Positions 508-49,012 of a DNA stretch of 64,000 nt are shown piece after piece (within the stretch, counting starts at the first letter, position 1; each line of letters begins with the position of its first letter). This stretch comes from Fusarium oxysporum f. sp. lycopersici 4287 (Eukaryota; Ascomycota; Sordariomycetes; Hypocreales; Nectriaceae). The translations under genes and the position numbers were made by a program. The stretch covers positions 1,460,747-1,524,746 of the forward strand of contig NC_030991.1 in NCBI RefSeq assembly GCF_000149955.1. Direction: 5' to 3'. Below the pieces are notes generated by a model. The model was not told where the DNA came from and did no database searches. It saw nothing but the letters and a program-made list of their open reading frames with translations.

Positions 508-651
508 GCTTCAAAGGGTCCGTGCTACCCATGCCCAATCCATTGAATCTAGTGTCCCGCTTCTCCCCTTTTACATTTCCCACCTGGCCCGTAATAACCC
601 CATATAAACAACCCCGTATCAATGACTCTATATGAACAACTAACCTAGACA

Positions 652-897
652 ATGACCGGAATCCATCAAGAAATCTCACTAAGCCTGGATCAACACTCTT
701 GGCTAGAGAAACTCCATCTTTACTTTAATTTACCAGAGCCGGCCATTATCTGCACGCTATGTGGCTACGCGCTTGCGGCTGACAATGACCGCGTCGGGAG
801 GCACCTGGGCGAGAAACATCAAATCTCCAAAGCAGCTCGCCAGAAACTGAACACCTTGGTAAACTCGCTCAAGCTCCCTGTTCTGAATAGCAAGTGA
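652..897 (+). CDS. OrsD/DUF3505-like N-terminal zinc-finger fragment
   Basis: An 81-codon ORF. After about 30 residues it carries a C2H2-like finger: CTLC, then HLGEKH about 15 residues later. This is the N-terminal signature of the fungal OrsD/DUF3505 family (named after the orsellinic acid cluster protein D of Aspergillus). Two other members here share the pattern of an aliphatic stretch, II/IVC-x2-C-G-[YF]-A. The ORF ends in AAGTGAGT, which could be a splice donor, but I cannot find the rest of the family protein downstream. It is therefore either exon 1 of a decayed gene or a 5' remnant. Three palindromes lie just upstream. Molecular function of the family is not established. Confidence 0.6.
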   Translation: MTGIHQEISLSLDQHSWLEKLHLYFNLPEPAIICTLCGYALAADNDRVGRHLGEKHQISKAARQKLNTLVNSLKLPVLNSK

Positions 898-1214
898 GTA
901 GGTAGTACGTGTCGCTGATAAATACCAGATACCGTTATTACTTGTAAACGTTTTGACTTGCTCATTGAGACTATCTTTGATGGCAAACCTGTGACTCAGG
1001 CGAAAATGCTAAAGAGGGTGAAAAACACTGGACCGAAAGTATTTCTTGTTTGATCTGTGACTTTAATGTTTAATAAATATCTAGTCAATAGTCTTCGTCG
1101 GCTCAAAATGGTCATCAGCACCTGCATTTGTCAGCGTCACGTTCAAATCACCCATGAATACATGCTCATCAGCCCTGATAATTATTACAATCATTATGGT
1201 GGTTATTCTTCGAT
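898..1214. other. No clear gene; possible short exon
   Basis: About 950-1054 holds an open stretch without its own ATG (reads FDLLIETIFDGKPVTQ... in frame). It could be a downstream exon of the 652 gene or chance. Nothing else recognised. Confidence 0.25.
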
Positions 1215-1772
1215 ATGAAATTCAGCACTGCACGTGCGACTTTGGTAGTGCTGGCTCCTGTCCTTTCATTAGCCAAGGGTAAAAAGCTCGACTCCGTCAG
1301 TTTCCAGGCCGACATTAAGACAGATAAGTCATCATCTGCTACAAACCACTATATGTGTACAGCACAGCTCACAATAACCGGTCTCATGCTAAATCTCAAA
1401 GTTCTGAATGATATCTCCTTCGATAGCGGCAGCAACAGAGCGCTTGGCTCCCCCGGCTACAGCGCATCTGTCGACTACACCTACAAGCGCGCCTCTGAAG
1501 TGAAGGAAGCCAAAGCCTGGAAACGATACTTCTCTGTAATCTCCGCCTCCGTCGATTATGTTAGTCTCAAAGTTGAGGATAAGCCCATCCATATTCATGG
1601 CCTGACATATTCGCCATCTACAAGTGTAGAGGGTATCACTGCCGAAATCGCGCTAGGACTTGAAGGCGCTGCAGGTTGCGACGCTTCTTCGTATCGCGGT
1701 CTTGATGTCAAGGGCAAGGGGACACTGCCAAGAACTCTTGATTCGGCACGGCACCCCTGCTATCTGGTTTAA
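1215..1772 (+). CDS. Small putative secreted protein, 3' end replaced
   Basis: A 185-codon ORF starting MKFSTARATLVVLAPVLSLAKG, a plausible signal peptide of about 20 residues. A cysteine-poor, beta-rich-looking mature region follows (alternating hydrophobic residues, DISFDSGS, YSASVDYTYKR). I do not recognise a family. From about 1710 the ORF overlaps, in another frame, a sequence that reads as a Helitron Rep-domain remnant, so the last 20 or so residues are probably not native. It looks like a small secreted protein gene whose 3' end was overwritten. An intron could also be hidden. Function unknown. Confidence 0.4.
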   Translation: MKFSTARATLVVLAPVLSLAKGKKLDSVSFQADIKTDKSSSATNHYMCTAQLTITGLMLNLKVLNDISFDSGSNRALGSPGYSASVDYTYKRASEVKEAKAWKRYFSVISASVDYVSLKVEDKPIHIHGLTYSPSTSVEGITAEIALGLEGAAGCDASSYRGLDVKGKGTLPRTLDSARHPCYLV

Positions 1773-2250
1773 ACTAAACCTGAACGATATAACGAGCCCG
1801 ATAGAAGTCGGGCTAAGACAAACGAAACCGAAGAATACCTAAAGAGTCTTGGCCGGGCAAACAAGAGAGCACGACTCGCCTTATCGGATTCTTTCAGCTC
1901 GGCCATCTTTTGTCACCGGGAGATGTCCATGTTCTTTCAGTATTACGTGATGGTTGGGAAAGATGCGATATTTGGGCGGATTAGTCAGTACTACGGGGCA
2001 GTAGAGACAAACAAAAGGAGCGCGCTCCAATTTCACGGCCTCCTCTGCCTGCAGGGTAACATGTATCTAAGTTCCCTTCTCAATGACGTTCAAGGAGAGA
2101 GGCAAGTTGCATAGCGGCAGCGGGTGACCGAATATGTTGATAGTGTTTTTGCGGAGGTTCGTTTATGCCACACCTGGATCTGGCATGTTGGTGATCGAGG
2201 GCAGATTAGTTGTGTTGGGAAAACAGGACCACTGTCTATTAGGTGCGACC
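1711..2250 (+). pseudogene. Helitron-like (Helitron_like_N) remnant
   Basis: In frame 1 near 1720-1810 the translation contains GTPAIWFKLNLNDITSPI. In frame 3 from 1905 it contains FFQYYVMVGKDAIFGRISQYY followed by GAVETNKRSALQFHGLLCL. These match the pattern of the fungal Helitron-like N-terminal (Rep-associated) domain: GPPxIWFTINPxDxxNPI, then FF...FGRVxxYYGxVExQxRGxLHxHxLL. The blocks are in different frames and stops interrupt (about 1840 and 2114), so this is a dead fragment. The PIF1-like helicase part is absent. It abuts and overlaps the 3' end of the secreted-protein ORF. Confidence 0.6.
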
Positions 2251-2563
2251 GGTAAATGGTGTTGTGTACTATAATCTCGCAGTCTCGCATAGCTACCCTT
2301 CTTACATTCTCCCTGAACCTTGACCAAATTTATTATCACAACATGAAGAAAATAGTCCTCAGCATTGCAAGTTTACCAACTTGCTGGTTTACAATTGGGA
2401 AAGATTCCCCTACTAAGATGAAATTAGTGTTCGGACTGCAACCTCGGGCCTTTGCGAGTGGCCTGGCGGCCGAAGGAGCGCTCGTTTCTGGCGCTTCGAA
2501 TGCCTCGAACAAGCGTCCTAGCTGTTCGAGAGGGTTTGGGATGCTGTAAGCTGTGGCACAGTT
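2251..2563. other. No gene recognised
   Basis: Short ORFs only, none with a recognisable domain. Confidence 0.3.
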
Positions 2564-3337
2564 TTAATCACCCTCCGACTCCATTTCGCAATCATCCTCC
2601 GACTCCGTTCCATAGTCACCCTCCGACTCCGTTTCATAGTCACCATCCAGCTCCATGCCAAGATCCAGATCCCGATCCATGTCATCGTGTCTCACGCTAG
2701 CAAGCAACCAATACAGCTTGAGCAAACGTGGACATCGGAGGCCTTGAATCTCGTCCATTTCTTGCAGCCACAACAGAATGCATTGCGGACCTATTTTTTC
2801 TAGGTCGTCCCAGTTCTTCCATCCCATGTAACGGAGAGCAGTGGCGCCCAATAAAGTCACACCAGTCCGGTCAGTTTTACCATCAGCCACCATACATGCG
2901 GCAACAAAATCTTTTACTGGCTTGACCCATTCACATGACACTACCGGATACGATTCACCGGTCTGCTCCCGCGCTTCGTCCTCGTTTCCATACTTCGCAT
3001 CTAGCATTTCCCTGTGTAACGTCTGCCAGCACAAAAGCTTTGGAAACCGACAATTGTTGCATCGCGCTCCTGGTCCATGGCTTTGCGCCTTGTAATCTTC
3101 CAAGACTTTGAGCCAGACATGCGCTTCACTTTTATGATCTTGATAGTAACAGTTCTCAATCATATGTGTATCAGCATCTTTGCTGCCTGGCCCATCATCT
3201 TTTGATCTCTGGATGAAGCAGAGCGTACAGTGGAGCCGGTTTCCGCGGATAAGCTCTTGTAGTTTCGTAACAATAATGTCATCACGTAGTCCTGTGGTCC
3301 TGCTGCTGTCCTTCCTAGTGCACCATACTAAAATCAA
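2564..3337 (-). pseudogene. C-terminal zinc-binding tail of a telomere-linked (RecQ-like) helicase
   Basis: A 257-residue reading without helicase motifs. It contains LHCTLCF at about 35, HMIENCYYQDHKS..VWLKVLEDY at about 60-80, then RCNNCRFPKLLCWQ at about 93-106. A helical stretch GVTLLGATALRYMGW..W..WLQEMD...RLLKLYWLLA and a strongly acidic C-terminus follow. The Cys-rich W..CxxCxxPxxxCxxW layout is what I associate with the extreme C-terminus of fungal telomere-linked RecQ helicases, which often carry OrsD/DUF3505 sequences at the other end. The helicase domain should lie to the right on this strand. Instead, intergenic repeats and the plus-strand OrsD-like ORF are there, so the gene is truncated near 3337. 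The acidic tail is encoded by about four 24-bp repeats (2566-2660). Confidence 0.5.
2566..2660 (-). repeat. 24-bp minisatellite coding for acidic tail
   Basis: About four tandem units of a 24-bp sequence (core CACCCTCCGACTCCGTTTCA on the plus strand), giving E-S-E-G-D-Y-x-T repeats in the minus-strand ORF. Later units are degenerate. Confidence 0.6.
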
Positions 3338-3495
3338 TTCTACGTAGAATTCATTTGTTTTATGCTAAACAACCCAGGGTAGAATTGGTTTTTACAGGGG
3401 AGTAGAATTCAATTTCTAGACCTACTTAACAGGGAGTAGGCTTGAATTTCGCAAGGGGTAGACTTTATTTATGCTAGGGGTAGACTTCATTTAAA
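3335..3495. repeat. Palindrome plus five GGGGTAGAMTT direct repeats
   Basis: A perfect 16-bp palindrome AATTCTACGTAGAATT (3335-3350) is followed by about five direct repeats of a GGGRGTAG[AG][AC]TT-x-[AC]ATTT unit, starting near 3379, 3398, 3431, 3455 and 3475 (roughly 20-30 bp spacing). The unit shares GTAGAATTC with the palindrome arms. This lies between the truncated helicase tail and the intact OrsD-like ORF. The repeats are directly visible. A role as promoter, recombination site or telomere-like tract is not known. Confidence 0.55.
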
Positions 3496-3524
3496 CCAGG
3501 GTCAATAATTAGATTAATGACATG

Positions 3525-3559
3525 ACGCGTAGTCGCGTGAGTACACGCGAGTACGCGTG
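3525..3559. promoter_or_regulatory. Alternating ACGCG/CGCGT half-sites, 10-bp period
   Basis: Four alternating half-sites, ACGCG (3525), CGCGTG (3534), CACGCG (3544) and CGCGTG (3554), are separated by 4-bp TAGT/AGTA spacers. They form three overlapping palindromes in which the half-sites recur every 9-10 bp, one helical turn. They lie 37 bp before the first ATG (3596) and about 130 bp before the second (3689) of the intact OrsD-like gene. The motif contains the MluI/MCB-like ACGCG core. Function is inferred only. Confidence 0.65.
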
Positions 3560-3595
3560 ATTTACGGCGTATATTAACTAGTAATAACTCTTTAG

Positions 3596-6500
3596 ATGGT
3601 TCATAGAGATCCTCCCCCTTACCCAAGACCGAGATATAGGGAGCATATACCCAATCGCCGTATAACAAGTTTATTTCCAATCAAGACAATGGGCCCTAGT
3701 AAGCTATCTCAATCATCCAACCCAGTCCACCCATTCGTTATTCTTCTAGAATATCAACTTATAGTATGCGAGTTATGCGGATTTGCAACCCTCCCCAACG
3801 AGGTCAACACACACCTCAGGACAAAACACAACAATATTTCTCTGGAATGCCGGCATAGATTGGTAGAGCAGGTCAAAGCAATCCCAGATCTTCTCCAAGA
3901 CCAGTCTAAGCTTCGACTACCACGCATACCGATTGAAGCGATTCCTTGCCTTGCTACACCGAGATTGGACGGACTAAAGTGCCGGAAATGTGGCCATATA
4001 TTCCGCCAAGCCCAAAAGATGAGGCTCCATTGTACGGAGGAGCACCTGTGGAAAAACCCAAGAGGAAGAGGAAGGCCGATATCAGGTCTGGAGCCATCTG
4101 CCGAATTACCATGGATCGAGGGCGTTGCCTGTCAACGGTTTTTCCCTTCTCGGGAAGGCAGTAGATGGTTCGAGGTCCTTCGAGAAACTGGAAAATCGAA
4201 GAAGGGAGCAAGACTCGCAAAATCATCTCGGCCTGATTTGAGCAAAGACGTCCGAAGCCTGAACTGTGAGGCGCGCACCCATCTAAGCGATGTATTAGAG
4301 CGAGAGGAGAATTATTTTCGCCAGATGAATCAGCCACGCATGAGTGCCAAGGACTTGGGTAGCGATGCTCTTGCATCTACCGGCCTATGGCAAGAGAGAA
4401 CTCAATGGCGGGTCATCTTTCAGAACACTCGACGTGACATTCTACGAGCAATGACGCGGTTACCGGATCGACATTCACTCATGTCAGACTATGTTATGGG
4501 ACAAGGGTGCCGGCAAGGCGATCCGGATATCAGGAGCTCGTACGTGGATGAACAGAAACTATCTTGTACCGTGAGGGCATTAGACTTGGTGATAGATCGC
4601 TGCGAGAACACAGTCCGTTACACCAGTCGTACCCTCTTATGCTGGCTCTTGAGTCTGAAGCTTCATGTCTATCGCGAAGCTCCGTTCCGTCTTGTGGCAG
4701 AGAAGAGCAGCGAAACTAAATATAGGGTACTTGAGAAACGCTTTCTTACATTCGTTATCCGACTTCATAGGATGTCGAATGCTTTACAGGGAGAAGTGGC
4801 GAACGTCCGATTCAATCCGGTACTTTCCGCGACAGTAGAACGTTTATGGAGCCATAAAATTTGGAATATGTTCGATGTATCTCGGGGACTGTGGCCCGAT
4901 CTTGGGAACTACCGCTGCGTCGAAGAGACTTCTGTGGCCCTGAATGAGGATCGGTCTAATTCGACTGGTAGCGAGGATGGGGAAAGAACAGGCAACAACG
5001 ATAGGGATGATATCGACCCAGAAGGGGAGGATGATGGCGACGGTGATGAGGACTGGGATTCAGATGACGATGAACTTGACCATGATGACTCTGCATATGG
5101 CAGCGATCGGGCCGAGTTCAGCCGAGAAGCCCATCTAGAACTACAGGTTCCAGCGGATGGTGAGCTCGATATTGCGGCCTTCGATGATTTCCTGGAGCTG
5201 CTCTATGATGCTTGCCTTACTCTGTGTACGGAGACCTTCATTGCTGGGCAGCCCGGCTCCACGCTATTAGTTTACTTCAGCGGTATCCTTGGTTTTTCTA
5301 AAGACTGCCAACACTTTTTGCTTGCACGACAGTACTGTCCACAACTATCTGGGCTCATTTATATGCAGCGCCTATTGCTTCTAGAACGCGCATTGCCATT
5401 AAGGCCATATAACACTATTGGCATCCCACAACGGCCACATACACAACAACTCAAAAGGTTAAACGAAATTCGAGCGGAGCATATGGTCCTAGGTTCACAA
5501 TCTCCACTTGCTGAGCTAGTCAGTCTTCGAAACTTTGGTCGCACTATAGCTCGCACCGAACCACCATCTATTCTTTTCTACTGGAGTGACGATGGGGAGA
5601 CAGTTTCAAACGGAAGCTTACAATTAACTATGGATAAATTTCGTGAGCTTCCAGAGTATTTTACGTCTCGAGCGGAAGAATTATGTGGCAGTCTCATGTA
5701 TGGTCTCGAACCTGAGATCGACTTAGCATCAGTCAAGGATGACTTGGCAAATTCACAGAGCGGATACTGTTTTGTCAAGCATCCCGCGAACGGTCTTGAG
5801 TCGGCATACAAGGAATTGCTGATCCAAGCCTATTCCTCCAGCAACGGCGCCCTTGCCAGAGACGGCTACTGGAGGTGGCCTATCGTTATGTCATACCTTA
5901 AGCAAGTGACCGAACTGGAAGAGATGCTTGCTGGCGGCCTCTATGTGGAAGGCGGTTCGTGTCCGCGAGTGCGTGAGCTTTTTGCCCTTGAATGTGAGAA
6001 CGGACCATTCACCAGTTGTGGAATTTACGTTTGGGGTGGTTCCGTGGTGTATGTCGCACGACACCATAAAGCGAAACGACAAACGAACCGCGAGTTTTAT
6101 GTGGTTCGCTTCCTGCCAGCCAGATTAAGCCGGGCTATGTACTTGTACCTTGTCTATATCCGGAGATTGGCCAACTTATTACGTCGAGAACAGGTTAGGC
6201 ACTCTGAGATTGTTCAGAAGGGCTCAGATGAACGAAACGAACGGCTTCTTTTTCATGTGAATGGAAAGGCCTGGTCTACTTCTCGCCTTACCGAGATTCT
6301 GGTCAAGGCCACTTCAAAGATCTGGAACCAAGCTATCAATGTCCGCTTATATCGCCAACTCGCCATCGCTATTACAGAGAGGCACGTCCGCGAGGTACAT
6401 ACCCCGTTCAATAGATACGATGACCTAAGCAGCGGCGCAGATAGAAATGCTGTGTTTGCGTGGCAAAGCGGACATCGTCCATTGCAACGGGAGACCACCT

Positions 6501-6817
6501 ATGGACTTGACGGAGCCTATCCGTTTCGACTCCAACCGGCACTCTTGCGTGCTTATGAGTGGGCTTCAACTCGTTGGCATGAATTTCTGCACCAACCAAG
6601 CAAAAGATGGTCTCTATCTGGTAGCCGAATACCTGCATTACTTGAAACAGAAATGAAGCAGCGCAAGCGTAATATCGCAATGACTTTGCAGGATACTCTG
6701 GCACTCCCAGAAGAGGCTAATTCATCTAAAAGATGCAAGGTAGCTAGCATATCTGGCTCGTTAGTGGAGCGAGATCAGGAAGCTAGGAACGGAGCTAGGA
6801 ACGGAATGCGAGCCTGA
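3596..6817 (+). CDS. Intact OrsD/DUF3505-like protein with C-terminal tyrosine-recombinase motifs
   Basis: A 1,073-codon intronless ORF. Met32 (3689) may be the real start, since relatives begin about 27-35 residues before the finger. Two C2H2 fingers are present: C58, C61, H73, H78 and C129, C132, H145, H150. Residues 443-510 are an acidic linker. Residues 525-605 contain the conserved block ILGFSKD..LSGLIYMQRLLLLERALP shared with the 7400 copy. Residues 785-985 resemble a tyrosine recombinase: box I CPRVREL (R791/R793), beta-hairpin lysine RHHKAK (K825), box II YRQL (R920), GH (H960), and a tyrosine (Y969) nine residues after the His, the XerD-like spacing. The HxxR histidine position reads Arg (R917). 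Family: OrsD/DUF3505, related to the N-terminal part of telomere-linked helicases. The length and absence of stops beside RIP-decayed neighbours suggest recent function. Recombinase activity is inferred. Confidence 0.75.
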   Translation: MVHRDPPPYPRPRYREHIPNRRITSLFPIKTMGPSKLSQSSNPVHPFVILLEYQLIVCELCGFATLPNEVNTHLRTKHNNISLECRHRLVEQVKAIPDLLQDQSKLRLPRIPIEAIPCLATPRLDGLKCRKCGHIFRQAQKMRLHCTEEHLWKNPRGRGRPISGLEPSAELPWIEGVACQRFFPSREGSRWFEVLRETGKSKKGARLAKSSRPDLSKDVRSLNCEARTHLSDVLEREENYFRQMNQPRMSAKDLGSDALASTGLWQERTQWRVIFQNTRRDILRAMTRLPDRHSLMSDYVMGQGCRQGDPDIRSSYVDEQKLSCTVRALDLVIDRCENTVRYTSRTLLCWLLSLKLHVYREAPFRLVAEKSSETKYRVLEKRFLTFVIRLHRMSNALQGEVANVRFNPVLSATVERLWSHKIWNMFDVSRGLWPDLGNYRCVEETSVALNEDRSNSTGSEDGERTGNNDRDDIDPEGEDDGDGDEDWDSDDDELDHDDSAYGSDRAEFSREAHLELQVPADGELDIAAFDDFLELLYDACLTLCTETFIAGQPGSTLLVYFSGILGFSKDCQHFLLARQYCPQLSGLIYMQRLLLLERALPLRPYNTIGIPQRPHTQQLKRLNEIRAEHMVLGSQSPLAELVSLRNFGRTIARTEPPSILFYWSDDGETVSNGSLQLTMDKFRELPEYFTSRAEELCGSLMYGLEPEIDLASVKDDLANSQSGYCFVKHPANGLESAYKELLIQAYSSSNGALARDGYWRWPIVMSYLKQVTELEEMLAGGLYVEGGSCPRVRELFALECENGPFTSCGIYVWGGSVVYVARHHKAKRQTNREFYVVRFLPARLSRAMYLYLVYIRRLANLLRREQVRHSEIVQKGSDERNERLLFHVNGKAWSTSRLTEILVKATSKIWNQAINVRLYRQLAIAITERHVREVHTPFNRYDDLSSGADRNAVFAWQSGHRPLQRETTYGLDGAYPFRLQPALLRAYEWASTRWHEFLHQPSKRWSLSGSRIPALLETEMKQRKRNIAMTLQDTLALPEEANSSKRCKVASISGSLVERDQEARNGARNGMRA

Positions 6818-6830
6818 TGAGAACCTATGT

Positions 6831-7304
6831 TTGGCTAGTGACAGTTTTGGGGGCGTGAACTCTCAATATCTCAAGGTAGGAAGCGATTTGTGGATAGATA
6901 AGGTTCTCTGCGTGCTTCCAGAGCATCAAGTCCTTATATGTCTTCTTTGCAGAGCTGCTATCCAACCAGGCGGGGGCATAGTAAGCCACTTCCGGAGAGC
7001 ACACCAATTTAAAGGTGTCGAACTCCAACAAGTCACGGCTTTCTGCGCCGGGAGGTTATTTAAAGATCCGTGCACAGTGCCGCTGCCAAAGAATGGAAGC
7101 AAGTCTATCCCAGAGCTTCCAAAATGGAAGGGCTATAGCTGCAAACACTGCAACTATATAACAATAAATCGCAAGAATATGACATCTCACCTTACAAAAC
7201 TTAAACACTCAACTCAAGCGGATGACGAGACGGACTGGGTATATGTTATCGTTCAAACGTTCTCAAGGGGCAGGTACATACGCTATTGGACTGTTGAAGA
7301 ATGA
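6831..7304 (+). pseudogene. OrsD/DUF3505-like copy 2, truncated after second finger
   Basis: 157 codons starting 13 bp after the previous stop. The first finger-like motif is ICLLC...HFRRAH, and the second is YSCKHCNYITINRKNMTSHL. This is followed by a VQTFSRGRYIRYWTVEE block that also appears in copy 3 ([15 protein letters not shown]). It then stops. The acidic linker, the LxGxLxxERxLP block and the recombinase-like part are missing, so this is a 3'-truncated relative. It has no palindrome trio of its own upstream, unlike the three other 5' ends. The tight spacing suggests tandem duplication or recombination junctions rather than a co-transcribed gene. Confidence 0.5.
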
Positions 7305-7399
7305 GATGGAATATATATTCATATAATAAGGGCACATTAGGGACAACAAAATAAAAGACATTTAGTTGGAGAGATTATTCAATTATATACTATGATATC

Positions 7400-9043
7400 T
7401 TGCTTTGTCTACTTTGCAAAGCAGCTATCAAGCCCGAACCGGCTCAGGTAGAGCGTCACTATCGCAATTGCCATAAGACTATCGGACAGCCGCTACAAGA
7501 AGTCATCGCGTTTGCCGAATCGTTCTCATCGGCAGGATGGCGCCCCCGAGCACTACAAGACCCAACAGATGAGAACATGGAACTGCCACCAGACGGAAGC
7601 CCACCTATCCCCGGACTAAAGACATATAAGGGACTCAGCTGCGAGAGCTGTCGATTTCTAACCCGCAATCGTCGGAATTTCGCCACGCATGAAACCCGCG
7701 AAAGGCACTACAAGCTGCAGGTCAGCGGCGGGGGAGGGAAAGGTCGGGCGACGGTGATGCTCCAGTCACTGCGCAAGGCTCCGCACGCAAGGTACTGGAT
7801 CGTCAATCCAGCCGCCGTACGGGCCAACGGCAGCGGCGACGAGAGCAGCAGCAGCAGCAGAAGCAGCAATACGGCTGAGCAGGGGAATGGTGGTGGCGAC
7901 GGCAACACTGATACTGTACTGCTACAGACCGTCCGGGCGTGCGAGAAGGATCTGAAGGAGGCGGAGGTGGAACGGAGACGTCAAGTGGAGGCACCAGGTG
8001 GAGTTGAAACTGAGTCAAGATGGGTGCAGTTTATGAAATGGTCGGCGCACTTGCAGCAGAAGGATAAACCGATGCTGCACCAGGCAGGACTATCACCGGC
8101 TTCTGCCGCAGTCGAGCAGCGGATGTGGCCCCGCGAGCGCCGTGAAGCGAACCAGAGGCTACGTGAGTTGACCGAGAGCTTCCGGCGCGAGCTTGGCCGT
8201 TGTATGGAAAGACTGGATAGGGTGCCGGACGACACGCTCGAGTGGCTCGGCAGCATTGACCCAACCAAGCCAGTATCGACCCTGTTCGGCCGAAAGCAGC
8301 AGTCAGATACGATGGATAGGTACAGTGCATGCTGGCAGCGGTACTTGTGCTATTGTGTCCGGATCCAGCCGCTTGGGCGCGAGGGAGCTAAGACAGAGCA
8401 CGGTATCCGATTTACGGAAGAGCAGTGGAACTCTCTGATCGATATCATACAGCGACTTGATACCGTTGCTGACAAGAAGAAGAAGCAGGGGCAGAAACAG
8501 GTCATGAAGGACAGCAGGGAAGGTGATAGTGATGGAGGGAGCGCTGAGGGTAGAGAAGAGGGGAAAGAAGAAGACTCCGACAAAGAGGCACTTGACGAGG
8601 CTGTCTTTGACTTCTGCATCAAGTCAATCAAGCAGAAGCTTGGGAGGAAGCAGTATCATAACCCACTGCTCCACTTTACGGCCGTATTAGGTATCAAGGA
8701 GGATGGTACATGGGTTCCGTCCCACACACATACTCGGTTTCTCGCCGGCTTCTTATGGTGCGGGAGGATTCTGATGTTGGAGCACTTTTTTGAGGATGAC
8801 CCGTACGACTCCGAGGACTCGACTTGCGACACGAGTTTCGCGGCTATCGGTCGGTTCCAGAAAGGTCATCGCAACTGGCTCGCAACCGGCTCATATACAC
8901 CGTTCAGCGCTATTATTCAGTGGATGACGTACGGACGGGGCTACCGCAATCAGGAAGGTGGGCAAGCGAGGGTGCTATGGGACAGTGATGGCATGACGCT
9001 TAATTATCTGGGTGATAAGATCATAGGGCAACCGACGAACTAA
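7400..9043 (+). pseudogene. OrsD/DUF3505-like copy 3, truncated at both ends
   Basis: A 547-codon open frame. The first finger is [14 protein letters not shown]...HYRNCH with no good upstream start (the preceding codons are in frame but lack the usual N-terminus). The second finger is [20 protein letters not shown] Ser-rich and charged linker follows, with a hydrophilic coiled segment and a KKKKQGQKQ...[11 protein letters not shown] tract. At about 425-500 comes the conserved block [38 protein letters not shown]. It ends in GQPTN at the border of AT-rich RIP DNA, so the recombinase-like C-terminus is lost. The GC-rich, stop-free body indicates that this copy escaped heavy RIP. Confidence 0.55.
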
Positions 9044-9589
9044 ATCTGGGGTAACCGACAAACTCTAGATTATAACTAATAAGTAATAAAATAACTATAA
9101 AAGCTTCTAGGTTTATAAAACTTAACCGTAAGATTATATTAAGAAAACTTTTATATTAAGAAATTAATATAAGTGCTAAAAATCGTAAGTTTTACTTTTA
9201 AGTCTGGTTTTAATATTTCTATATTAGTAGGGGTATTACTAAACTTAGGCCAATAATAATAAGCGCAATTAGTATAAGAGAAATATTAAGATAATAATAA
9301 GCTATTATTCTAATAATTATATAAAAGGCAAATTATAAATATATAGTTACTATATTTATATAATATAATAAGTGACTTTAAGTAACGGCTAAAATATAAA
9401 TATAAAGGAAGGGCTATATAGTAATATTTCTACTAGCTAAGCTTAAATAATTAGTAAATATAAATAAATCTATTAGCTTCTATCCTATAGACCTAACTCA
9501 GATTATATAAGTATCTTACGTTCCATTTATAATCCTATAGTCCTAGGTAATATATAGGTCTACTCCTCTACCTCTATTTACATAACCTA
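9044..9589. other. AT-rich RIP-like tract
   Basis: Very high AT with TA-rich runs and stops in all frames. This is consistent with an RIP-degraded repeat. No family can be read. Confidence 0.5.
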
Positions 9590-13507: not shown

Positions 13508-16500
13508 ATGATTCTACCAGCTAACCTAATACCGACTGGGAAAGACCCTATACCCTCCTACGCCATGACCGACAGCGGGGCGGAAGGGAAAGGATTTATC
13601 GATGAAAGCTGGGCAAAGTCCCAGAACTTACAGCTTTACCCCCTAAAGAGACCATTCGAGATAGAGGTCTTCGACGGCCGACCCGCCGAGAGTGGGCAGA
13701 TTACCCACTATGTCCGTGCCGGACTCCGGATCGCAGACCATTTCCAGAAGAGTATGCTATTCTACGTCACCCGGCTAGCCAGCTATCCCATAGTCCTAGG
13801 GATGCCCTGGCTAAAACAGCATGACCCCCAGGTGGGCTTCGCAACCCACACCTTCACCTTTAATAGCCCATACTGCCAGAAGTTCTGTAATACGCCAGCT
13901 AAACCTACAAAAATCAAAGCCCTACAGACCATCCCAAAGAAATTCCTCCGCCAACTAGAACAGAGCATCCCTAAGAACCTAAGGAAGAAGGATATCCTCC
14001 CTATATCCCTAAAGGCTGTCCGATTATACAGCCAGAGACCAAGCTGCCGCTTCTACACCATCACACTCGAACAGATTGACCGAGGACTACAGGATAAGAC
14101 CGAAGATTTCCAGTTGCCCGAGGAATTACAAGAATTCCAAGACGTCTTCTCGCCTAAGGAAGCCGAGAAGCTACCCCCGCACCGATCCGGAGACCACCAC
14201 ATCGAACTGGTACCTGGAGGGAAGCTACCCTTTGGGCCACTATATGGAATGTCTCGTGAGGAGCTGAGAGCCCTACGAGAGTGGCTTAGGGAGAACCTAC
14301 GCAAGGGATTTATCCGACCTAGCTCTTCGCCTGTCGCGTCGCCAGTACTTTTTGTAAAGAAACCCGGCGGCGGACTTCGATTCTGCGTGGACTACAGAGC
14401 CCTAAACAACATCACAGTCAAGGACCGCTACCCGCTGCCCCTGATCAAAGAGTCCCTAAACAACCTATCCGGCATGAAGTACTTCTCCCGTATAGACATC
14501 GTATCTGCCTTTAATAACCTCCGAATAAGGAAGGGCGAAGAATATCTCACAGCCTTCCGAACACGCTTTGGATTATACGAATCCCTAGTCATGCCCTTCG
14601 GACTAACAGGAGCCCCTGCAACCTTCCAACGTTATATCAACGACGCCCTAAGAGAACACCTAGATATATTCTGTACAGCCTACCTAGATGATATCCTGAT
14701 ATACAGCCGAACCCGAGAGGAACATATAGAGCACCTTAAGCTGGTGCTCCAGAAGCTCCGAGCCGCAGGGCTCTATGCCAATCCTGCTAAATGCGAATTC
14801 CTAGTTAAGGAGACGAAGTTCCTAGGCCTAATCGTGGGCCAGGAAGGGATTAGAATGGACCCTTTGAAAGTCGAGACGGTCAAGAACTGGAAGACACCGA
14901 CCTGCCTGACAGATGTGCAAGCCTTTATCGGCTTCGGGAACTTCTATAGGAGGTTCATCCGTGACTTCTCAAAGCTCACGGCACCCTTGAACAGACTGAC
15001 GAAGAAGGACGTGCCCTTCGTATGGGATGATGCCTGCGAGAAAGCTTTCCTAAAGCTGAAGGAAGCCTTTACAACAGCCCCGATCCTACGCCCGTTTGAC
15101 TGGACCAGAGATGTAATCCTTGAGACCGATGCCTCTGACTACGTCTCGGCGGGAGTGCTATCGCAATATGACGACGAAGGAAGGCTACACCCGGTAGCCT
15201 TCTTCTCAAAGAAACACACAGCCACCGAGTGTAACTACGAGATATATGATAAGGAACTGATGGCAATTATCCGCTGTTTTGAGGAATGGAGACCCGAACT
15301 AGAGGGCGCACCCTCGCCGATCAAGGTGATCACAGACCACAAGAACCTAGAGTACTTTACGACAACGAAGCTACTGAACCGAAGACAAGCCCGTTGGTCC
15401 GAGTTCCTATCTCGTTTTAATTTTCAAATTAGCTATCGACCCGGAAAGCAAGGAGTTAAGCCCGATGCTCTGACCAGGAGGTCAGAAGACCTGCCTCAGG
15501 AGGGGGATGAGCGCCTGGCGCATCAGAGCCAGGTAATCCTAAAGAAAGAGAATTGGCAGCTTCCACCCTTGAAGGTTCAGAGGGCCCGTATACGCCAGCC
15601 GCACCTACAAATACCTGCAGCCCCAGCAGAACCAAGTCCTTCCATAGACTTGCCGGGGGATATCGACCGCCTATTAGAAGAGGGTTACCAGACCGACGAC
15701 GACCTACAGTCAATACTGCAGGCCGTAAGAGAAGGCGCCCAGCGCCACCCGAAGATCACCCTGGCCGAGTGCACTATCGTACAAGGCCGACTACTCTATC
15801 GAGACCGCGTTTATATTCCAGACCACAACCCCCTGAAGGCTGCCCTGCTGAAAGCAAGTCACGAACACCCCATAGCAGGCCACCCAGGCCGCGCCCGCAC
15901 TTATGACCTACTCTCACGCGACTACTACTGGCCTGGAATGCTATCTTATGTAGAACGATGGGTTAAGAATTGTCACACCTGCCGAAGATCGAATCCCGCC
16001 CGAGATGCAAGACAAGGAGTCCTAAAGCCCCTGCCCGTGCCAGAGCGAGCTTGGCAGCACCTATCAATGGACTTTATAACCCACCTGCCACCTAGCGAAG
16101 GGAACGATGCTATCCTGATCATAGCCTGCCGACTTACGAAGATGAGACATATTATAGCCTGCAAGGGAACCTGTGATGCCGAAGATACCGCCCGATATTA
16201 CCTAAAGGAAGTGTGGAAGCTACATGGCCTTCCACAGACTATAGTATCTGATCGAGGACCTCAGTTTGTGGCTGAATTCTGGAAGAAGCTTAACCAACAG
16301 CTATCCATCAACGCCCTTCTATCAACCGCATATCACCCCGAAACCGATGGACAGACCGAGCGGCTAAATGCCATACTAGAGCAGTACCTGAGAACCTATG
16401 TGTCATACCTGCAAGACGACTGGAGCCGATGGCTCCCCCTGGCCGAGTTCGCAGCGAACTCATTAAAGTCTGAGACCACTAGGATATCCCCGTTCTTCGC

Positions 16501-17152
16501 GAACTATGGATTTAACCCCCGGATGGGCTTTGAGCCTACTATCACAGTCAGAGGAACCCCTGCCACGAGAGATGCGGAACAGTTCGCACAGACGATGAAC
16601 GAGATACTAGAGTACTTACGCTCCGAGAGCATAGCCGCACAAGCCCGTTACGAAGACCAGGCGAACCGTCATAGAAGACCCGCCAGATGCTATCGAGAAG
16701 GCGACTATGTCTGGCTCGATGCCCGGAATATCAAGACCTTGAGGCCACAGAAGAAGCTAGACTGGAAGAACATCGGTCCCCTTAAGATCACAAAGGTCAT
16801 CTCCCCATATACCTACCGGTTAGATCTGCCTGCGAGCATGAAGATACACCCGGTGTTTCACACGAACCTGCTCAGACCCGCCGCCACCAACCCCTTGCCA
16901 GGCCAGAACCCAGACCCGCCGCCGCCTATCGAGGTCGAAGGAGTGGAAGAGTGGGAAGTGGAAGATATCCTCGATTCCCGTTGGGATCGCCGCGGCCGTG
17001 GAGGCCGCCCCAGACTGAAGTACATAGTGAAATGGGCAGGATACACCGACCCAACTGAAGTCCCTGCCGACTACGTGGATAACGCTGCTGAGGTCGTAGC
17101 CAACTTCCACAGGAGGTATCCCGATAAGCCGGGACCGCAGAAAAGGGCCTGA
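13508..17152 (+). CDS. Chromovirus Pol: protease, RT, RNase H, integrase, chromodomain
   Basis: 1,214 codons counted from the first ATG, but the frame is open from 13358, so pol is probably made as a Gag-Pol fusion. Aspartic protease DSG starts at D22. RT core YLDD is at 392-395. RNase H DAS has D541. Integrase zinc-binding residues are H787 and H792 region and C822/C825. The integrase DDE triad is D855, D915, E951, with exactly 35 residues between the last two. The C-terminus (about 1147-1200) is a chromodomain: [11 protein letters not shown]...[21 protein letters not shown]. All catalytic motifs are intact and no stop is present, so the element may be active. Confidence 0.93.
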
Positions 17153-24908: not shown

Positions 24909-25062
24909 TTACCTTAAAAGTCATTTTTTCCAACTTTTGATGATGGCGACCTGTATCCGTTGGGGGCAATGGATTCAGGTCCCTGTCTTCATTAGCGTGG
25001 TTTTATTTTATATGTGTTTTCCATTGGATTCAGACCTGTATCCGCCTCGCAGCTAGGATAGG
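24909..25062. repeat. 154-bp direct repeat, left copy
   Basis: TTACCTTAAAAGTC...AGCTAGGATAGG, apparently identical to 26517-26670. It includes the stop codon and last codons of the transposase ORF. Confidence 0.85.
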
Positions 25063-26419
25063 CATTCTCATGCATTATTGCCTTTGTTCCCTTTGCAAGC
25101 GACTTCAGAGCTCCTAGTATTGACTCTGGGGAGCTACTTTGATGCCTTCTGATTCGCCTATAGAGGTATTCAGACTGAGATTCGGCCTCGAGAACTGTCT
25201 TTGGCGTCTTTGAAGTCCAAGGCTGAGCCTGGCTGGCCTCCTCCACGGGAGGTGTTGGAGTCCGTAGCTGAACATCAAGCTTTGAGATCACACTTTCAGG
25301 GTCAAAAGGAACAAGGCCAGCCCCTCTAAAAGCCCCTCTGATATTCTTTTCGGTCATAGTGGCTTGAAAGGCGGCGGCAAAGGCAGGAAAGAACTCGGTC
25401 TTCGAAATGTGATGTACAGACCTTCTGATCAGATCCTCAATTTCTCGACCATATGCCTTTTTAAGCGGCCCAAAGCACCCAATATCGAGAGGCTGGAGTA
25501 GATGAGACGAATGAGCCGGCATACAGAGCGTAATAATCTTATTTGCCTCGCAATATCTCTCAAATTCGACAGAGTGGTGGCTTTCGTGGCCATCAAGGAT
25601 CAGAAGACGATAGGAACCAACTGATCGATCAGCTGTGCGTCGGTCAAAGTGCTTTAGCCACTCAAGACCCAGTTCGTTATTTGTCCAGCCATTTTGGCTC
25701 ATTGCAATAACCCAATCGCACGGGAGGGTAGGTTCTTCATGCCAGTTAGCGAGGTGATTTTGGCCCGCGCCAATGATAAACGGCTCAATCGCCTGGCCTT
25801 CCGCATTAATCGCCTGAATGACTGTAATCCATTCACGGTTTCCAGGCTGCACTGATCTCGGTCTTCCAAGCCTTTCTGAACCTGTGACGACCATTCCGCT
25901 TGAAATCATGCCCATCATAAAGCCAGTCTCATCAAAATTCCAAATATCATGTGATTGGATACCGTATTTCGCGATTGTGTTCTCTACAAGCCTAAACCAA
26001 TTTCGAATAATAGTCGGATCTTCACATTTGGCTCTCTGGTAATCATATCTCCGAAAGAAACGCATCTTGAGCTCTGGTTGTCGCTTGATAAAATTGTTAG
26101 CCCAGTGCATGCCGACAGGTGACGCGTTGCGGTCAGCGAGGAGACAATTAGCCATTGCTTCAACAAAAGACAGTTTTGGGGGAAACCCTTGGGAATCTAG
26201 CTTTAGAATAAAGCGAACTAAAGTCTTTTCTTCTAGATTAGATAGCTTTCGTGATCCTGGTGTCCAGTCGCGTCGGGATTGAGCGCCATTCTGGCGGCGA
26301 CGTAATGTACTGCGATTGACGTTATATATACTTGCAGCGCGTCGGATGCTTAATTTTGGGTTATTTTGAAGGGCCTGAAGTGCAAGAAGGATTCTACCTT
26401 CTTTATTGGGTTGTGACAT
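24992..26419 (-). CDS. Pogo/Fot1-type DDE_1 transposase, intact
   Basis: 475 codons. An N-terminal helix-turn-helix (psq-type, about 10-45: LSIRRAASIYNVNRSTLRRR) is followed by a CENP-B-type HTH (about 60-125). The DDE_1 catalytic core has D163 (NFDETGF), D276 (LILDGHESH) and D312 (LQPLDIGCFGPLK), with 35 residues between the last two. Length and motifs match Tc1/mariner-pogo transposases of fungi, and no stops are present. The extreme C-terminus lies in the left 154-bp direct repeat. No obvious short TIRs with TA duplication were found at the edges, so mobility is uncertain. A related fragment lies at 52574. Confidence 0.88.
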   Translation of the reverse strand: MSQPNKEGRILLALQALQNNPKLSIRRAASIYNVNRSTLRRRQNGAQSRRDWTPGSRKLSNLEEKTLVRFILKLDSQGFPPKLSFVEAMANCLLADRNASPVGMHWANNFIKRQPELKMRFFRRYDYQRAKCEDPTIIRNWFRLVENTIAKYGIQSHDIWNFDETGFMMGMISSGMVVTGSERLGRPRSVQPGNREWITVIQAINAEGQAIEPFIIGAGQNHLANWHEEPTLPCDWVIAMSQNGWTNNELGLEWLKHFDRRTADRSVGSYRLLILDGHESHHSVEFERYCEANKIITLCMPAHSSHLLQPLDIGCFGPLKKAYGREIEDLIRRSVHHISKTEFFPAFAAAFQATMTEKNIRGAFRGAGLVPFDPESVISKLDVQLRTPTPPVEEASQAQPWTSKTPKTVLEAESQSEYLYRRIRRHQSSSPESILGALKSLAKGTKAIMHENAYPSCEADTGLNPMENTYKIKPR

Positions 26420-33178: not shown

Positions 33179-36100
33179 CTAGTAGCGAGGGCAGATATTT
33201 CCAAAGAACGCGCTGGCCTTGGATAGGTCGATATATTTGGTAAAGTCTTTTCCTATTGCTAGATTGACCGCTGCATTCGGTGAGGGTGCAAGCCTCATCC
33301 GGTGACGCGGCGGTATCTTTCTGCAGTAGAAGATGTGATCCGGTGCTTTGCGTCGGCCACATGAGCAGACTAGGCGTGCGTCGACATGGTCGAATCTCTC
33401 GTGATACGCAGCGAAGTCCCCGTGAAGGGATCTCGCTGCCAACAGATGGTGCAAGGCTGCGCGCGGGAGCGAAAGCTCCGGCGGGCAGCCTGTAGTCGCC
33501 TTGAGATTGAGCCTCTTATACTGCTCAGGGGCAGAGGTCGACCACCACGTCTCGAATGCTTCTTTCGGTTTCTGTCTTGCGATCCTTCGCAAGTATGCTA
33601 GTGTTGGCTGAGCCTGCCCAGGCTCGGGGGCTGATGATGCTGCTTTGGCCAGTTTATCGGCCTGTTCGTTGCCGGGGATGTCGGTGTGTCCTGGCACCCA
33701 GCGTACCTGTGTGGCTCCATGCAAAGCCGCTAGTGCCTGAAACTCGAGAAAGACGTCCTGTGAGGAGTCGGAAGGTGTGCCTCGCAGGCATGTAGCAGCT
33801 GCAAGATTGTCTAGGCAGATTATGATGTTTCGTGAAACTGATTCTTGTAGGTTTAGAGCGGCCTTCAAGCCCTGGAGCGCCCCTGTAGCTTCGGCAGGTC
33901 CAAGGCGACCTGACCCGTCGAGGACGGGGAAGTTGCCCTGGTGAATAGTAAAGCCGTAGCTGGCAGCTCCCTGAGAGGAGAGAGAGCCATCTGAGTATAT
34001 TACTAGGGTTAGCGGATCGAGTGACTGCACCCAACGGAGGAAAGCGTCGGCCGTTTCCTTCTTCGACGCTGTCTGCAGCGGTGGCATTTGTTCTTGGTTG
34101 AAGCATCGCTGGATGAGCTTCGGTCGCGCGCACGGCGCAAGGAGCTCATCTGTGCGTCGAAGACGTGTTCGGAAGCTACTTTCCGTCTGTGCTTGATATC
34201 TTCGTTTTATGAGGTCGTGGTAAGCAGGTTGGCTGGGCGGACGCGTTCGCCTCGCCAGAGGGTGAGCCTCATCAAGCGATTTGAGCCGTGCAGAGAATCG
34301 GAGTCGTCGTGATTCAAGGAGTTGCGCGACTGGCGGTATCCCACTTTCTCGGTGGAGAGCAGCAATAGGTGTTGTCTTCCAGACGGGAAGTATAGCTCTC
34401 ATGGCCTGGTTCATGGCTTTGGTCATTCTCTGTATGAGATGTTGGTTGCTTGAAGGTAAGTCTTTACTGGGTTGATTCCATCGCGGCCTGGATGTGCCCG
34501 GGTACCAGGCCTCGGAGCCGTGGAGCAGCACGGGCTCGATACATGCCCTAACGGCACTTCGTACGGCAGCCGGCAGCCGGCAGCGGGCCGTGTTTCGTGT
34601 TGGTGAGTCCTCGCAGATGGTAGGCCACGGCTTGCGCTTTCGCCGCCCACTTCTCTACATGGATTCGGAACGATAGCCTGCTGTCAAGCCAGATGCCCAG
34701 CCAGCGTAGGGCTGACTCGGGATGTTTCTCGATGTCGCCGTGACGTACTGCCGGGGCGGTCCTGAGTTTGCTGCGAGAGAAGTGCATGACTTCAGTCTTC
34801 TTCGAGTCGAAGGAGACACCGTTCGTCGCTCCCCAGCGCACCATCTCGTCGATGGCCCCGGAAGTCATAGCCGTAGTTTCGTCTACTGTGTCGCCTATGG
34901 ACAGGATGGCCGTGTCATCAGCATAACCGAAGCGACCCTGAGGGTTTCCTAGTCGGTAGATTGGCTCAGTATAGAGTAGAAAGAGAATTGGCGATACCGG
35001 CGACCCCTGAGGGAGGCCGCACTGAAGGGGAGAAGAGGCCGTGACGGTGTCTTGGTACCTGACACGCGCAGACCGGCCGCCCATGAAGGAGCCAGCCCAA
35101 CGAGCCAGATAGTCAGGCCAGCCTTGTTCGCGTAGACGCAGAACTAGCCTGTTGCACATGACGGTGTCGAAAGCACCTTGGACGTCCATTGTGACTAGAG
35201 TCGCCACCTTCTTGCGTGCAAACGCTTCTTCGATATCGTGGATCAGAGCTGTCACCAGGTCTGTCGCAGACCTTTTGGGGAGCGCTCCAGCTTGCTGTGG
35301 GTGCAAGACGTTGTAATGCACCGCTGCCCAGGCTAGGCGGCGTGCGATCAGTCGTTCCAGTCCCTTGCCAAGACAGGAGAGTAGTGAGATAGGTCGCCAC
35401 GCTCGTGGCTCTGTGAGGTCTCTGCGTCCCGGTTTCGCGATCATGACCACCTCCGCCTCCTTGAATGGTTTTGGATGATGGCCTGTGGTAAGGCATCTTT
35501 CGAAGAGACGACGGACGTGTGTACCGATAATATGCCATACTGCTTCAAGAAGTTTGACTGTGATGTTGTCTGACCCTGGGGATGTATTGCCTGTGTAACA
35601 AGTCGCATATTGCGCCTCCTCTAGAGAGATTTCGGGAGAGAATGGGATCGATCTAGGTGGGAATACTGGCGTCCATGCGTTTGCGATGTCGTCCTCCGCA
35701 GTTCTTCGTTCAAGCGTGGCCTGTCGGAGTGCGTTGGCTTTATCTATCTGGCTTTCATACACGACGTTATCGACCTGTAGAGGTGGCGGCTGGAAGGCTC
35801 CTGGGGACTTTAGCCACCGGACAGCTTTGAAAACATCGCTACTGCTGGAGAAGCCATCGATGAGGTTACGCCAATAGCGCCTCTTGGCCTGACGGACTAC
35901 ACGATGAAAGCCTCTTTTGGCGATCTGAACATCCTGGTTGAAGCCGAGCAGGTAGCTTCTTCTGATGGCTCGAAAAGCAGCCGCGGCGTCGGCGCACTCC
36001 TCCGTCCACCAGGGAGCCGGACGTCCGCCTTTCCGTGCGGGCCTCCCAGACGCTTTTGCTGCTGATGTTAGTAGACTCACAAGTGAAGAGGCAAGCTCGT

Positions 36101-36920
36101 CCAGCTCCTCGGGGGTCGAATCTGTCAGGGGTATTCCTGTAGCGCCAAGCTCTACGATCTCGACGAATCGTTTAAGCTCGTCTTCCGTCTTGACTCGGAT
36201 CTTGGCCGGTTGTACCGGAGTCGATCTGATGTCAAGGAAGGTCAAGCTGAGCGTGAAGTGGTCGGAGCTAGTGGCGAGATGGTCCTCGACGGTAGCTTCG
36301 GCCAGTGGCATATTGGTGAAGGCCAGGTCAATCGTGTTGCCGTGTGGATTTGTCGGGATATCTAGAGTGTTAAGAAGATTGAGGTCATTCTCTGACGCCC
36401 ATCCCGCTACCTCGTGGCCGCGGTTCGTCGCTTGGCCCGTCTGCCAACTACGATGCCTGGCATTGAAATCGCCAGCAACGAGGCAGCGCTCCGGAACAGG
36501 CCAGCGAAGCAGCGTGTTTAGGGCATCCCTCTCGTCGTTCTGGCGATAAAAGTTGACTATCGTCATGCCGTTGACTGTGATCCAAAGGATGTCACGTGTC
36601 TCAAAGGGGCGAATCTGGTCAGCCAGAAGTCTTGGGTCTCGTCGGACATATGTCATCACTCTAGGCCGAGTGTCGTTGCTGTTCCACATGTCGACTGGCG
36701 TGAACGTGTCGTACGCAGGATGTGTCTTGGTTAGGCAGCGGGCTTTAGTATGAGCTGTCCACGGCTCCTGCAGGAGTACAATGTCATATCGTTCCGAGTC
36801 GGCTAGCGCCAGGGCGCAGTCGTGGGCCGGAGGGATCTTGCCGACGTTGGCCTGGAAGACCTTGAGTGGCTTCTTATCGTTCTTTCGTGTCTGCGAGTAC
36901 CTATTCCTGGTCATAGTCAT
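33179..36920 (-). pseudogene. LINE ORF2: endonuclease, reverse transcriptase, RNase H; one frameshift
   Basis: The first open part (36920-34548, 790 codons) has an APE-type endonuclease (VFQANVGK, LLQEPW, VAGDFNARH, SSDHFTL) and RT (GLPQGSPVSPILF, FGYADDTAIL). The second part (34531-33179, 450 codons) continues RT thumb-like sequence (EPVLLHGSEAWYP), then RNase H (YSDGSLSSQGAASYGF, EATGALQGLKAAL, VPGHTDIPGNEQADKLAK) and a Cys/His tail (CSCGRRKAPDHIFYC). The frames are broken by a third copy of a 7-bp unit CGGCAGC at 34564-34584. With two units the frame would be continuous. All catalytic motifs are otherwise present. Confidence 0.85.
34564..34584. repeat. 7-bp tandem repeat (CGGCAGC)x3 causing ORF2 frameshift
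   Basis: Three perfect tandem CGGCAGC units. Seven bases equals +1 mod 3, which explains the frame change between the two halves of LINE ORF2. Confidence 0.8.
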
Positions 36921-47248: not shown

Positions 47249-49012
47249 TCATCCTTCTCTGCTTTGCCATTTAATGCTATTTGCAGTTTCTTCAGACACA
47301 TCTATCAGTGCATCTCCGGCCTCAATTAGCCCACTTCTCACCCACGATCTTAATGTTTGCGTCATCCTTATCGTACTGGCTTCCAGCCGAGTCCCAAGTG
47401 GTGACACCATTTGCCCAGCAACGCTAAATAGTCGCTCGCACTCTGCAGACATAGGTGGGATCGAGAGCACATCGAGAGCCATCCGTGACAGTCGTGGATA
47501 GTCTTTCCGTTTCTCCCACCAATACCGCAGTGGATCTGTCACCAGTGGATCGTGCTTCGCATCGGGATTGCGTAGCCAATGATCATACTCATCATAGTCC
47601 CCATCCCACGAACCTTTCAAGCAAGCAGTTTCGTCTGGCAGCGACGACGTTCTACAAGCCCGATGCCTCTCAAGCGCACTCATTACCTTCAAACGCTTCA
47701 GTGGAGGCTCTCCATTGGGCGTTGACAGTGTCGGCGATGATTTGTACTTTTCCTCCCACAATTTCTTCACCATATCTTTTGCCTCTTCAAGCCACACCAG
47801 CGGTGTCTCATCAGTCCATGTGTTCTCGAAATATGCCCAGCGCGAAACAGGATTCAGAATCGCTGAGGCATAGTATGCTGGCGTTTCATCAAGCTTCGTG
47901 TAATAGTCATTCAGCTTGCACCATCCTAAATTAATGTTAACCCTGAAGTGTTCGGAATCCGGGTAGTTTCCCGCAACTGCTTTCCACTCCTCAAGCCTTT
48001 CCATCAGAAATTCATATGTTGAGGCGACGTCCCACATATTGCCGTATGCCTCGACATGTCCTCCTTTGCGTGGTCGTCTTTGGGCATCACCCTCAAGCAT
48101 ACGGAGTGCCTCCTCAAAGTCAACAAGCACCTCCTCCATTAACTCAACAACCATCCAGTCATTCTCGCTGAGCAGGCTCTCCTCACAAAGGCACAGAGGC
48201 ATTTCCTCTGTCCTTCTCACACCATTCCGGCGTTCTCTATTGAATTCTATCGTGGTTTTCTCAATGAGGTCCTCGAGAAAGGGTCGTAGCTTCAGGCCCC
48301 GCCTCATCATATAGAGAGTCGACAACTAGCGAGTCTGATTATCACGTACGACGTCCAAAGGTTTCCTCGCTTGAATGACTGGGATGTCAGAGTTTTGAAA
48401 GAACTCTTCCTGAAGAGCACGGAGTTTATATGTCAGCTTGTCCGACCGGTGGATCCAGTGCACCAGGTTGTGGAGTTTGCCAACGGGGCCTTTCTTCCGC
48501 CAGATTTCGTGCTGAGTAACATCAAAACCAGGTTCCCCATCGACCTCGGTTTCGAAAGCCTCAGGGTTTTGCCCAAACAATAGGGCGTTGACAACAAGAT
48601 TAAGCACGTGGCCGAAGCATCGTATTCTCCGTTGCTTCGAATCGACGCCCAGCGCCCTTGCAAGCTCCTCCGTAGCAGTGTCCATGTTGCCAGCGTTATC
48701 CAACGTCATGTATCCCACCTTGTCGAGAATCTCATAACTCTCCAGTATCTCCAGGATCTGCGCTGCAATATTCTCACCAGTGTGCGAAATCCTCAGTTCC
48801 GGCAGGCCAAGGACCAGTTTCGATGGGGCTCCATTATTGTCAACAAAAGAATACACTATCCCATAGAGCGCGTGCCGGTTCCTGGAGCGCCAGCCATCGA
48901 AAGCGATATGAATCTGGCCCGGGGTGCTCCTCAGATGGTCGATTACGCGCAAGGTTGAAAGCCACTCCACCCAATCCACGTAGTGGATCCACTCGTGGAT
49001 TCCACTGTCCAC
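47249..49012 (-). pseudogene. hAT transposase, 5'-truncated with a nonsense codon
   Basis: The N-terminal piece (49012-48326) has HIAFDGWRSRN and TLDNAGNMDTA catalytic-region motifs, RRIRCFGHVLNLVVNAL, WRKKGPVGKLHNLVHWI and DNQTR. The next codon is TAG (48328-48326) where hATs have Trp (NxTRW). The frame then continues unchanged (48325-47249) through LNPVSRWAYFE to the C-terminal hATC dimerisation domain (YPRLSRMALDVLSIPPMSAE, then CERLFSVAGQMVSP). A single TGG-to-TAG change thus splits it. The BED-finger N-terminus is missing, because the ORF runs into the GTGGAT repeat array at the right. Confidence 0.85.

Follow-up and report, generated by a model that had tools for sequence, protein, structure and literature searches.

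OrsD domains and telomere-linked RecQ helicases (TLHs) have been described from fungal telomere-associated sequences and chromosome ends: the available portions of the relevant sources report OrsD in telomere-associated sequences of Ustilago (PMC10532341), DUF3505 together with helicase domains in those of Colletotrichum (PMC5576322), and TLHs at chromosome ends of Fusarium oxysporum (PMC12857005). The word recombinase was not found in the portions available of PMC10532341, PMC12857005, and PMC8381367, that of PMC5576322 makes no mention of one either, and among the papers listed in searches of the open-access literature (preprints were outside its scope), none tied OrsD or TLHs to a recombinase. 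Here we describe an open reading frame, ORF1, in a 64,000-nucleotide stretch of the F. oxysporum f. sp. lycopersici 4287 genome (C6:1460747-1524746; hereafter, the window). ORF1 encodes an OrsD zinc-finger protein with a tyrosine-recombinase-like domain; it is probably the tyrosine recombinase of a repeated mobile element whose left end lies at window position 3314 and which, in its longer form, also carries a helicase-bearing partner, ORF2.

The predicted catalytic domain of ORF1 resembles those of XerH, XerA, and Cre in its fold, in the R-K-R-H-Y order of its active-site residues, in the nine-residue spacing between His and Tyr, and in its R-x-x-E box. Unlike these enzymes, to which it has no detectable sequence similarity, ORF1 lacks the HxxR His, carries OrsD fingers, and has its first catalytic Arg (Arg I) about 120 residues into the domain. 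Cryptons are likewise eukaryotic DNA elements with a tyrosine recombinase, but a scan of five ORFs at E up to 1 returned no GCR1_C match (a difference at the level of profile hidden Markov models [HMMs] only), and the element described here has OrsD fingers and, in its longer copy, encodes a helicase besides two recombinase proteins. Cryptons have short terminal direct repeats; the observation available for the present element is confined to two left ends, where CCTAG or CCT is common to element and target. The DUF3435 captains of Starships are also fungal tyrosine recombinases of mobile elements (PMC12134995, in the portion available). However, none of the same five ORFs matched PF11917 at E up to 1, all 13 DUF3435 matches of the genome lie outside the window, and the present element is compact as far as known; the original prediction that ORF1 is distinct from these captains is thus supported at the profile-HMM level. 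Compared with TLHs, some homologs of ORF2 bear the names tlh1 or RecQ and many contain an LPTGxGKS motif, but ORF1 itself has no helicase.

Predicted fold of ORF1

A full-length AlphaFold2 model of ORF1 was built from 81 sequences, with a mean predicted local distance difference test (pLDDT) score of 77.9. Ten-residue mean pLDDT values are at least 83 over residues 661-930, except at 821-840 (58, 78) and 871-880 (58). In the model, a helix is followed by a beta sheet, one hairpin of which carries K825, and then by further helices. Structural alignment of this model with VIA-align gave top scores for XerH (11.4), XerA (10.4), and Cre (10.3); every entry in rows 1-29 and 31 of the ranking is a recombinase, a type IB topoisomerase, or a protelomerase. 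Scores in the remaining rows are 4.5 or less, save for a zinc finger (5.3) aligned to the OrsD part. By these comparisons, the fold predicted for ORF1 is that of the tyrosine-recombinase catalytic domain, as the original prediction required. The final aligned pair in many Cre rows is 964-319, which would place H960 opposite Cre position 315, the third catalytic residue of that enzyme; some other rows (Tn1549 integrase and one XerH chain) end in a different register, in line with the low local confidence of the model.

A type IB topoisomerase or protelomerase-like enzyme, which would relax DNA or resolve chromosome ends, would fit the link to telomere-linked helicases described below. However, Xer and Cre top the rankings for both the ORF1 and the ORF2 models, and dispersed copies have sharp left ends with palindromes, in keeping with strand exchange at specific DNA; such an enzyme appears an unlikely identity for ORF1.

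Conservation of the active site

When 7995 candidates were scored against ORF1 residues 520-1030, 339 proteins matched at E up to 1e-3; the 120 highest-ranking ones were aligned with ORF1 to give 121 rows, and counts refer to rows readable at the site in question. Most ORF1 homologs among the matches listed are annotated as "hypothetical." R791, R793, K825, R920, H960, and Y969 sit at the positions originally predicted, with H960 and Y969 nine residues apart, and the conservation of R920, H960, and Y969 expected across homologs was borne out (Table 1). This conservation goes beyond chance: the full R-K-R-H-Y set is present in 103/104 rows readable at all five sites. The sole exception (P0028) has R-K-R-D-Y, and gaps affect one or more of the sites in 17 rows. 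Asp occupies the H960 column in P0028 and P0063, while the non-Tyr residues at the Y969 column belong to P0023 and P0080, both poorly aligned there. Six columns between 780 and 980 are invariant over at least 100 readable rows, including those of R791, K825, and R920.

Of the two Arg residues in the PRVREL box, R791 is conserved and R793 is not (Arg in just 56/116 rows), which rules out the latter as a catalytic residue and leaves R791 as the catalytic candidate; position 794 of the R-x-x-E box is Glu in 91, Asp in 25, and Ala in one of 117 rows. The HxxR His had been suspected of replacement, and position 917 indeed holds Arg in 68 rows, Gln in 46, and Ala in one. This His is usual, though not universal, in the tyrosine recombinase/type IB topoisomerase superfamily. 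Because it is absent, ORF1 is assigned here to the fold superfamily, as a member whose active site has changed, and to no classical integrase family; no claim is made for its membership in any named recombinase family. H930 (window 6383-6385) is invariant in the ORF1 family (118/118 readable rows) and is not kept in the ORF2 family. H930 is a candidate stand-in for the lost HxxR His in ORF1, but one that ORF2 proteins lack.

Left end and dispersed copies

The genome searched for copies (G000) comprises 61.2 Mb in 71 contigs. When it was queried with window positions 1-9500, homology of many other copies began at 3313-3316; the flanks of eight such loci were examined and all differ, two of them (L014 and L022) being situated within a related element's left end. 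In other matches, homology starts further inside (e.g., at 3653, 3525, 8751, and 8611), so not every copy keeps the left end. Related families with different interiors (L028-L033) have the same tip, and most keep the terminal palindrome, which is not in L030 and in L028 occurs in the second left end alone. Two genome pattern searches returned 26 places each, compared with none for the reversed control, though these lists include segmental duplicates. Next to the palindrome, six iterons occur in 330 bases, as compared with a mean of 0.045 and a maximum of 2 in 20,000 mononucleotide shuffles; repeat families D1-D3 are further evidence of the array.

Four loci (L009, L014, L018, and L023) have left ends embedded in genes of the same family. 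Two targets are known at the DNA level, both at L014, and in each the target supplies the tip bases (CCTAG once, CCT once). At L009, L018, and L023, CC or CCT would come from the interrupted frame, provided that the codon there matches the residue found in relatives; the relatives' residues at these sites are CRHLT in 8, NFGQKVA in 5, and LGQGT in 4 of 206 proteins. In the same four loci, a 3′-cut copy abuts the left end of the next element, as if ends had been repeatedly lost and capped, or as if insertions were nested and had lost their remainders. At L019 and L017, the letters just past the 3′ break look alike (CTGTAC... and GGCCCGTGCAC), perhaps reflecting a small inserted element of another kind.

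In the window copy, homology ends within ORF2, at 9023. At three other places the sequence continues past this point; 9023 was therefore dropped as the right end of the element and is instead a truncation of the window copy. The original suggestion that ORF1 might move the surrounding DNA is supported for a compact element starting at 3314, copies of which stand in different flanks, and not for the rest of the window; the whole 64-kb window was rejected as a mobile unit, for which there is no evidence.

Pairwise ratios of nonsynonymous to synonymous change (dN/dS), estimated by a simple method without correction for repeat-induced point mutation (RIP), are lower in the catalytic part of ORF1 than over its whole length: between the window and the C14 copy, the values are 0.34 for ORF1 (1047 codons), 0.14 for the catalytic part (332 codons), and 0.18 for ORF2 (511 codons). 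The ratios for further pairs are 0.37 (window and L007), 0.31 (C14 and L007), and 0.52 (window and L003, with few changes and 6 stops).

Alternatively, ORF1 could have been a recombinase once and now persist, domesticated or dead, as a DNA-binding factor, its copies having arisen by segmental duplication in an accessory region rich in transposable elements (TEs). Window positions 1-9500 are found in three genomic places at 99-100% identity (the window itself, C3:2993016-3002515, and C3:3129695-3139206) as part of duplications between two contigs; L021 and L022, which share a 3′ stop, are one segmental duplicate (97% over 5.2 kb); copies are frequently truncated; and the OrsD name itself comes from a metabolite gene cluster. 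However, the five active-site residues are retained in all but one of the fully readable rows, whereas Crypton-derived DUF3504 genes are reported to have lost most of theirs (PMC3212892, in the portion available), and left ends are found in different flanks. We regard domestication as improbable, on a par with the topoisomerase alternative. Least likely is that the element spreads through another transposase, or by being added onto broken chromosome ends, and that the recombinase domain is an accessory: the 3′-truncated copies meeting a next left end at the four loci above fit it, as does the orientation of 14 of 18 OrsD places within 150 kb of the ends of seven long contigs toward the nearer end (hand-picked places, not independent), but eight other copies begin within two bases of one position with differing flanks, some within coding sequence, and the one contig start examined, on the contig with the best OrsD match, has no telomere repeat array.

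ORF2 and the RecQ helicase link

In a longer copy of the element, the ORF1 frame continues into a second, C-terminal OrsD domain, and ORF2 encodes an OrsD domain, a second recombinase domain, and a RecQ-type helicase. ORF1 of the window, at first described as intact, is not quite so, as its C-terminal OrsD lies out of frame; window ORF2 ends before the helicase. With the C-terminal OrsD missing from its ORF1 and with a truncated ORF2, the window copy is probably not autonomous. What had been read as two N-terminal C2H2 fingers in ORF1 corresponds to the Pfam OrsD domain (PF12013, 56.8 bits vs. a cut-off of 26.6); beyond it, a Pfam scan at E up to 1 returned just a sub-threshold zinc ribbon.

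A RecQ-type helicase domain was found for ORF2 of the longer copy and its relatives alone, and LPTGxGKS occurs in 41/86 newly listed ORF2-type proteins as compared with 0/120 ORF1-type proteins. Names given to ORF2 homologs include helicase tlh1 (one) and RecQ (several). In the ORF2 family (87 rows), a conserved R-K-R-(H/W)-Y set is present in 58/59 rows readable at all five sites. Elsewhere in the genome, an ORF2-helicase copy at C5:4906468-4910425 has 51 TAG and 22 TAA codons in its first part and looks RIP-mutated. A divergent 1115-aa frame near a contig start (L044:6401-9745, minus strand) is the genome's best OrsD match and carries an HSFRTFNFAY (H-x8-Y) motif and a helicase-like end.

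Weighing the recombinase interpretation

Several results weigh against ORF1 as the recombinase of a mobile element. Model confidence is low around the active site: pLDDT drops to 44-61 over residues 931-980, the stretch with H960 and Y969, the blocks holding K825, H960, and Y969 average 58, 61, and 44, and the His and Tyr blocks of the ORF2 model average 57 and 52. On its own, Foldseek did not reach significance (best E values, 0.14 for the ORF1 model, and 0.034). Alignment of both families to eight named tyrosine recombinases with hhalign gave probabilities below 1%, the same as for reversed decoys, while five control trials among those recombinases gave E values of 2e-8, 2e-8, 2e-5, 7e-4, and 3e-3. 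An hmmsearch of Protein Data Bank (PDB) sequences found no recombinase and nothing convincing in 35 rows for the ORF1 profile; for the ORF2 profile, the best 60 of 191 matches held no recombinase, and RecQ and other helicases were recovered. The HxxR His is absent from both families, the ORF2 counterpart of the Arg or Gln at 917 being mostly Ser or Ala. The ORF2 match in the longer copy holds one stop in its first part. Many copies are truncated at differing 3′ points, some with stops; no common right end was found, as the independent copies examined stop at different 3′ points, and neither an empty site nor a direct-repeat pair was found among the copies.

A phmmer search of the PDB with the C-terminal part of ORF1 returned a spurious rhodopsin alone (E 0.053). 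Since hhalign is negative where its positive controls succeed, structure and active site reveal the relationship, and sequence profiles do not. The original reading of ORF1 as a site-specific recombinase is partly supported, by the predicted fold and the conserved residues and not by sequence-profile similarity to known recombinases.

A possible mechanism

A working model can be proposed, in which cleavage, the position of the crossover, present activity, and the parts played by the palindrome, the iterons, and the helicase are all inferred. The OrsD fingers and the helical region would bind subterminal DNA, namely the terminal palindrome and the GTAGAATT-type iterons. The catalytic domain would cut near the CCTAG tip, with Y969 as nucleophile and R791, K825, R920, and H960 forming the active site, and the element end would be joined to a target sharing CC(T). 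In the longer form, ORF1 and ORF2 may act jointly; elements with paired recombinases exist. The helicase may serve excision, copying, or end processing.

Features of the window

The window is rich in TEs; these and the features of the element are collected in Table 1. A search of plasmid records gave no hit.

Table 1. Features of the element and its surroundings, in window coordinates
Feature	Position	Strand	Evidence
Left end of mobile element, starts CCTAGTGC	3314..3330	+	Homology of other copies begins here (within 2 bases); flanks differ
Terminal palindrome, 26 bp, arms 3331-3343 / 3344-3356; candidate recombinase core site	3331..3356	.	Inverted repeat, 92% complementary, no spacer
Six GTAGRVTT iterons, starts 3344, 3379, 3402, 3436, 3458, 3480; candidate accessory binding sites	3344..3501	+	
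18-nt inverted repeat directly upstream of ORF1	3522..3561	.	89% complementary; poorly kept in other copies
ORF1, OrsD zinc-finger domain and tyrosine-recombinase-like protein, 1073 aa	3596..6817	+	Pfam, model, structural alignment
N-terminal OrsD, two C2H2-type fingers, residues 48-150	3737..4045	+	Pfam PF12013, E 3.8e-15
Helical region, residues about 264-440, possible core-binding domain	4385..4915	+	XerH/Cre structural alignments start at 263-265; weak, range ends only
Predicted catalytic domain, residues 672-1003	5609..6604	+	
R791 (Arg I, R-x-x-E box)	5966..5968	+	R in 119/119 readable rows
K825 (beta-hairpin Lys)	6068..6070	+	K in 115/115 readable rows
R920 (Arg II)	6353..6355	+	R in 115/115 readable rows
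H960 (His/Trp III)	6473..6475	+	H in 112/114 readable rows
Y969 (candidate nucleophile)	6500..6502	+	Y in 111/113 readable rows
Out-of-frame remnant of C-terminal OrsD of ORF1	6831..7304	+	PF12013, E 3.4e-16; in frame with ORF1 in longer copy
ORF2 5′ part, OrsD and start of second recombinase protein, cut off at 9023	7400..9023	+	PF12013, E 8.9e-13; tblastn with P0125
Gypsy-type LTR (long terminal repeat) element	13508..17152		
DDE transposase, Pogo-like, with Psq/Tc5-type HTH (helix-turn-helix)	24992..26419		
LINE-like endonuclease/RT (reverse transcriptase) and RNase H	33179..36920		
hAT dimerisation domain	47249..48325		

Implications

Among tyrosine-recombinase elements, we judge this one to be new in combining OrsD fingers with an altered active site and in encoding two recombinase proteins, one of them fused to RecQ. 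OrsD was matched at 150 or more places in this genome, duplicated regions included. A broader interpretation, to which we give roughly even odds, is that OrsD proteins and fungal telomere-linked RecQ helicases form one large, unrecognised mobile class that uses a divergent tyrosine recombinase; TLHs would then be recombinase-helicase fusions, and the full element would carry two recombinases (ORF1 and the ORF2-helicase) and insert at CC(T), often into one another. If the domain is a recombinase, annotation has missed mobile elements on this scale. It would then also be possible to test telomere-linked helicases for a part in integrating DNA or capturing ends, and Cryptons and Starships would be joined by another group of fungal elements with a tyrosine recombinase.
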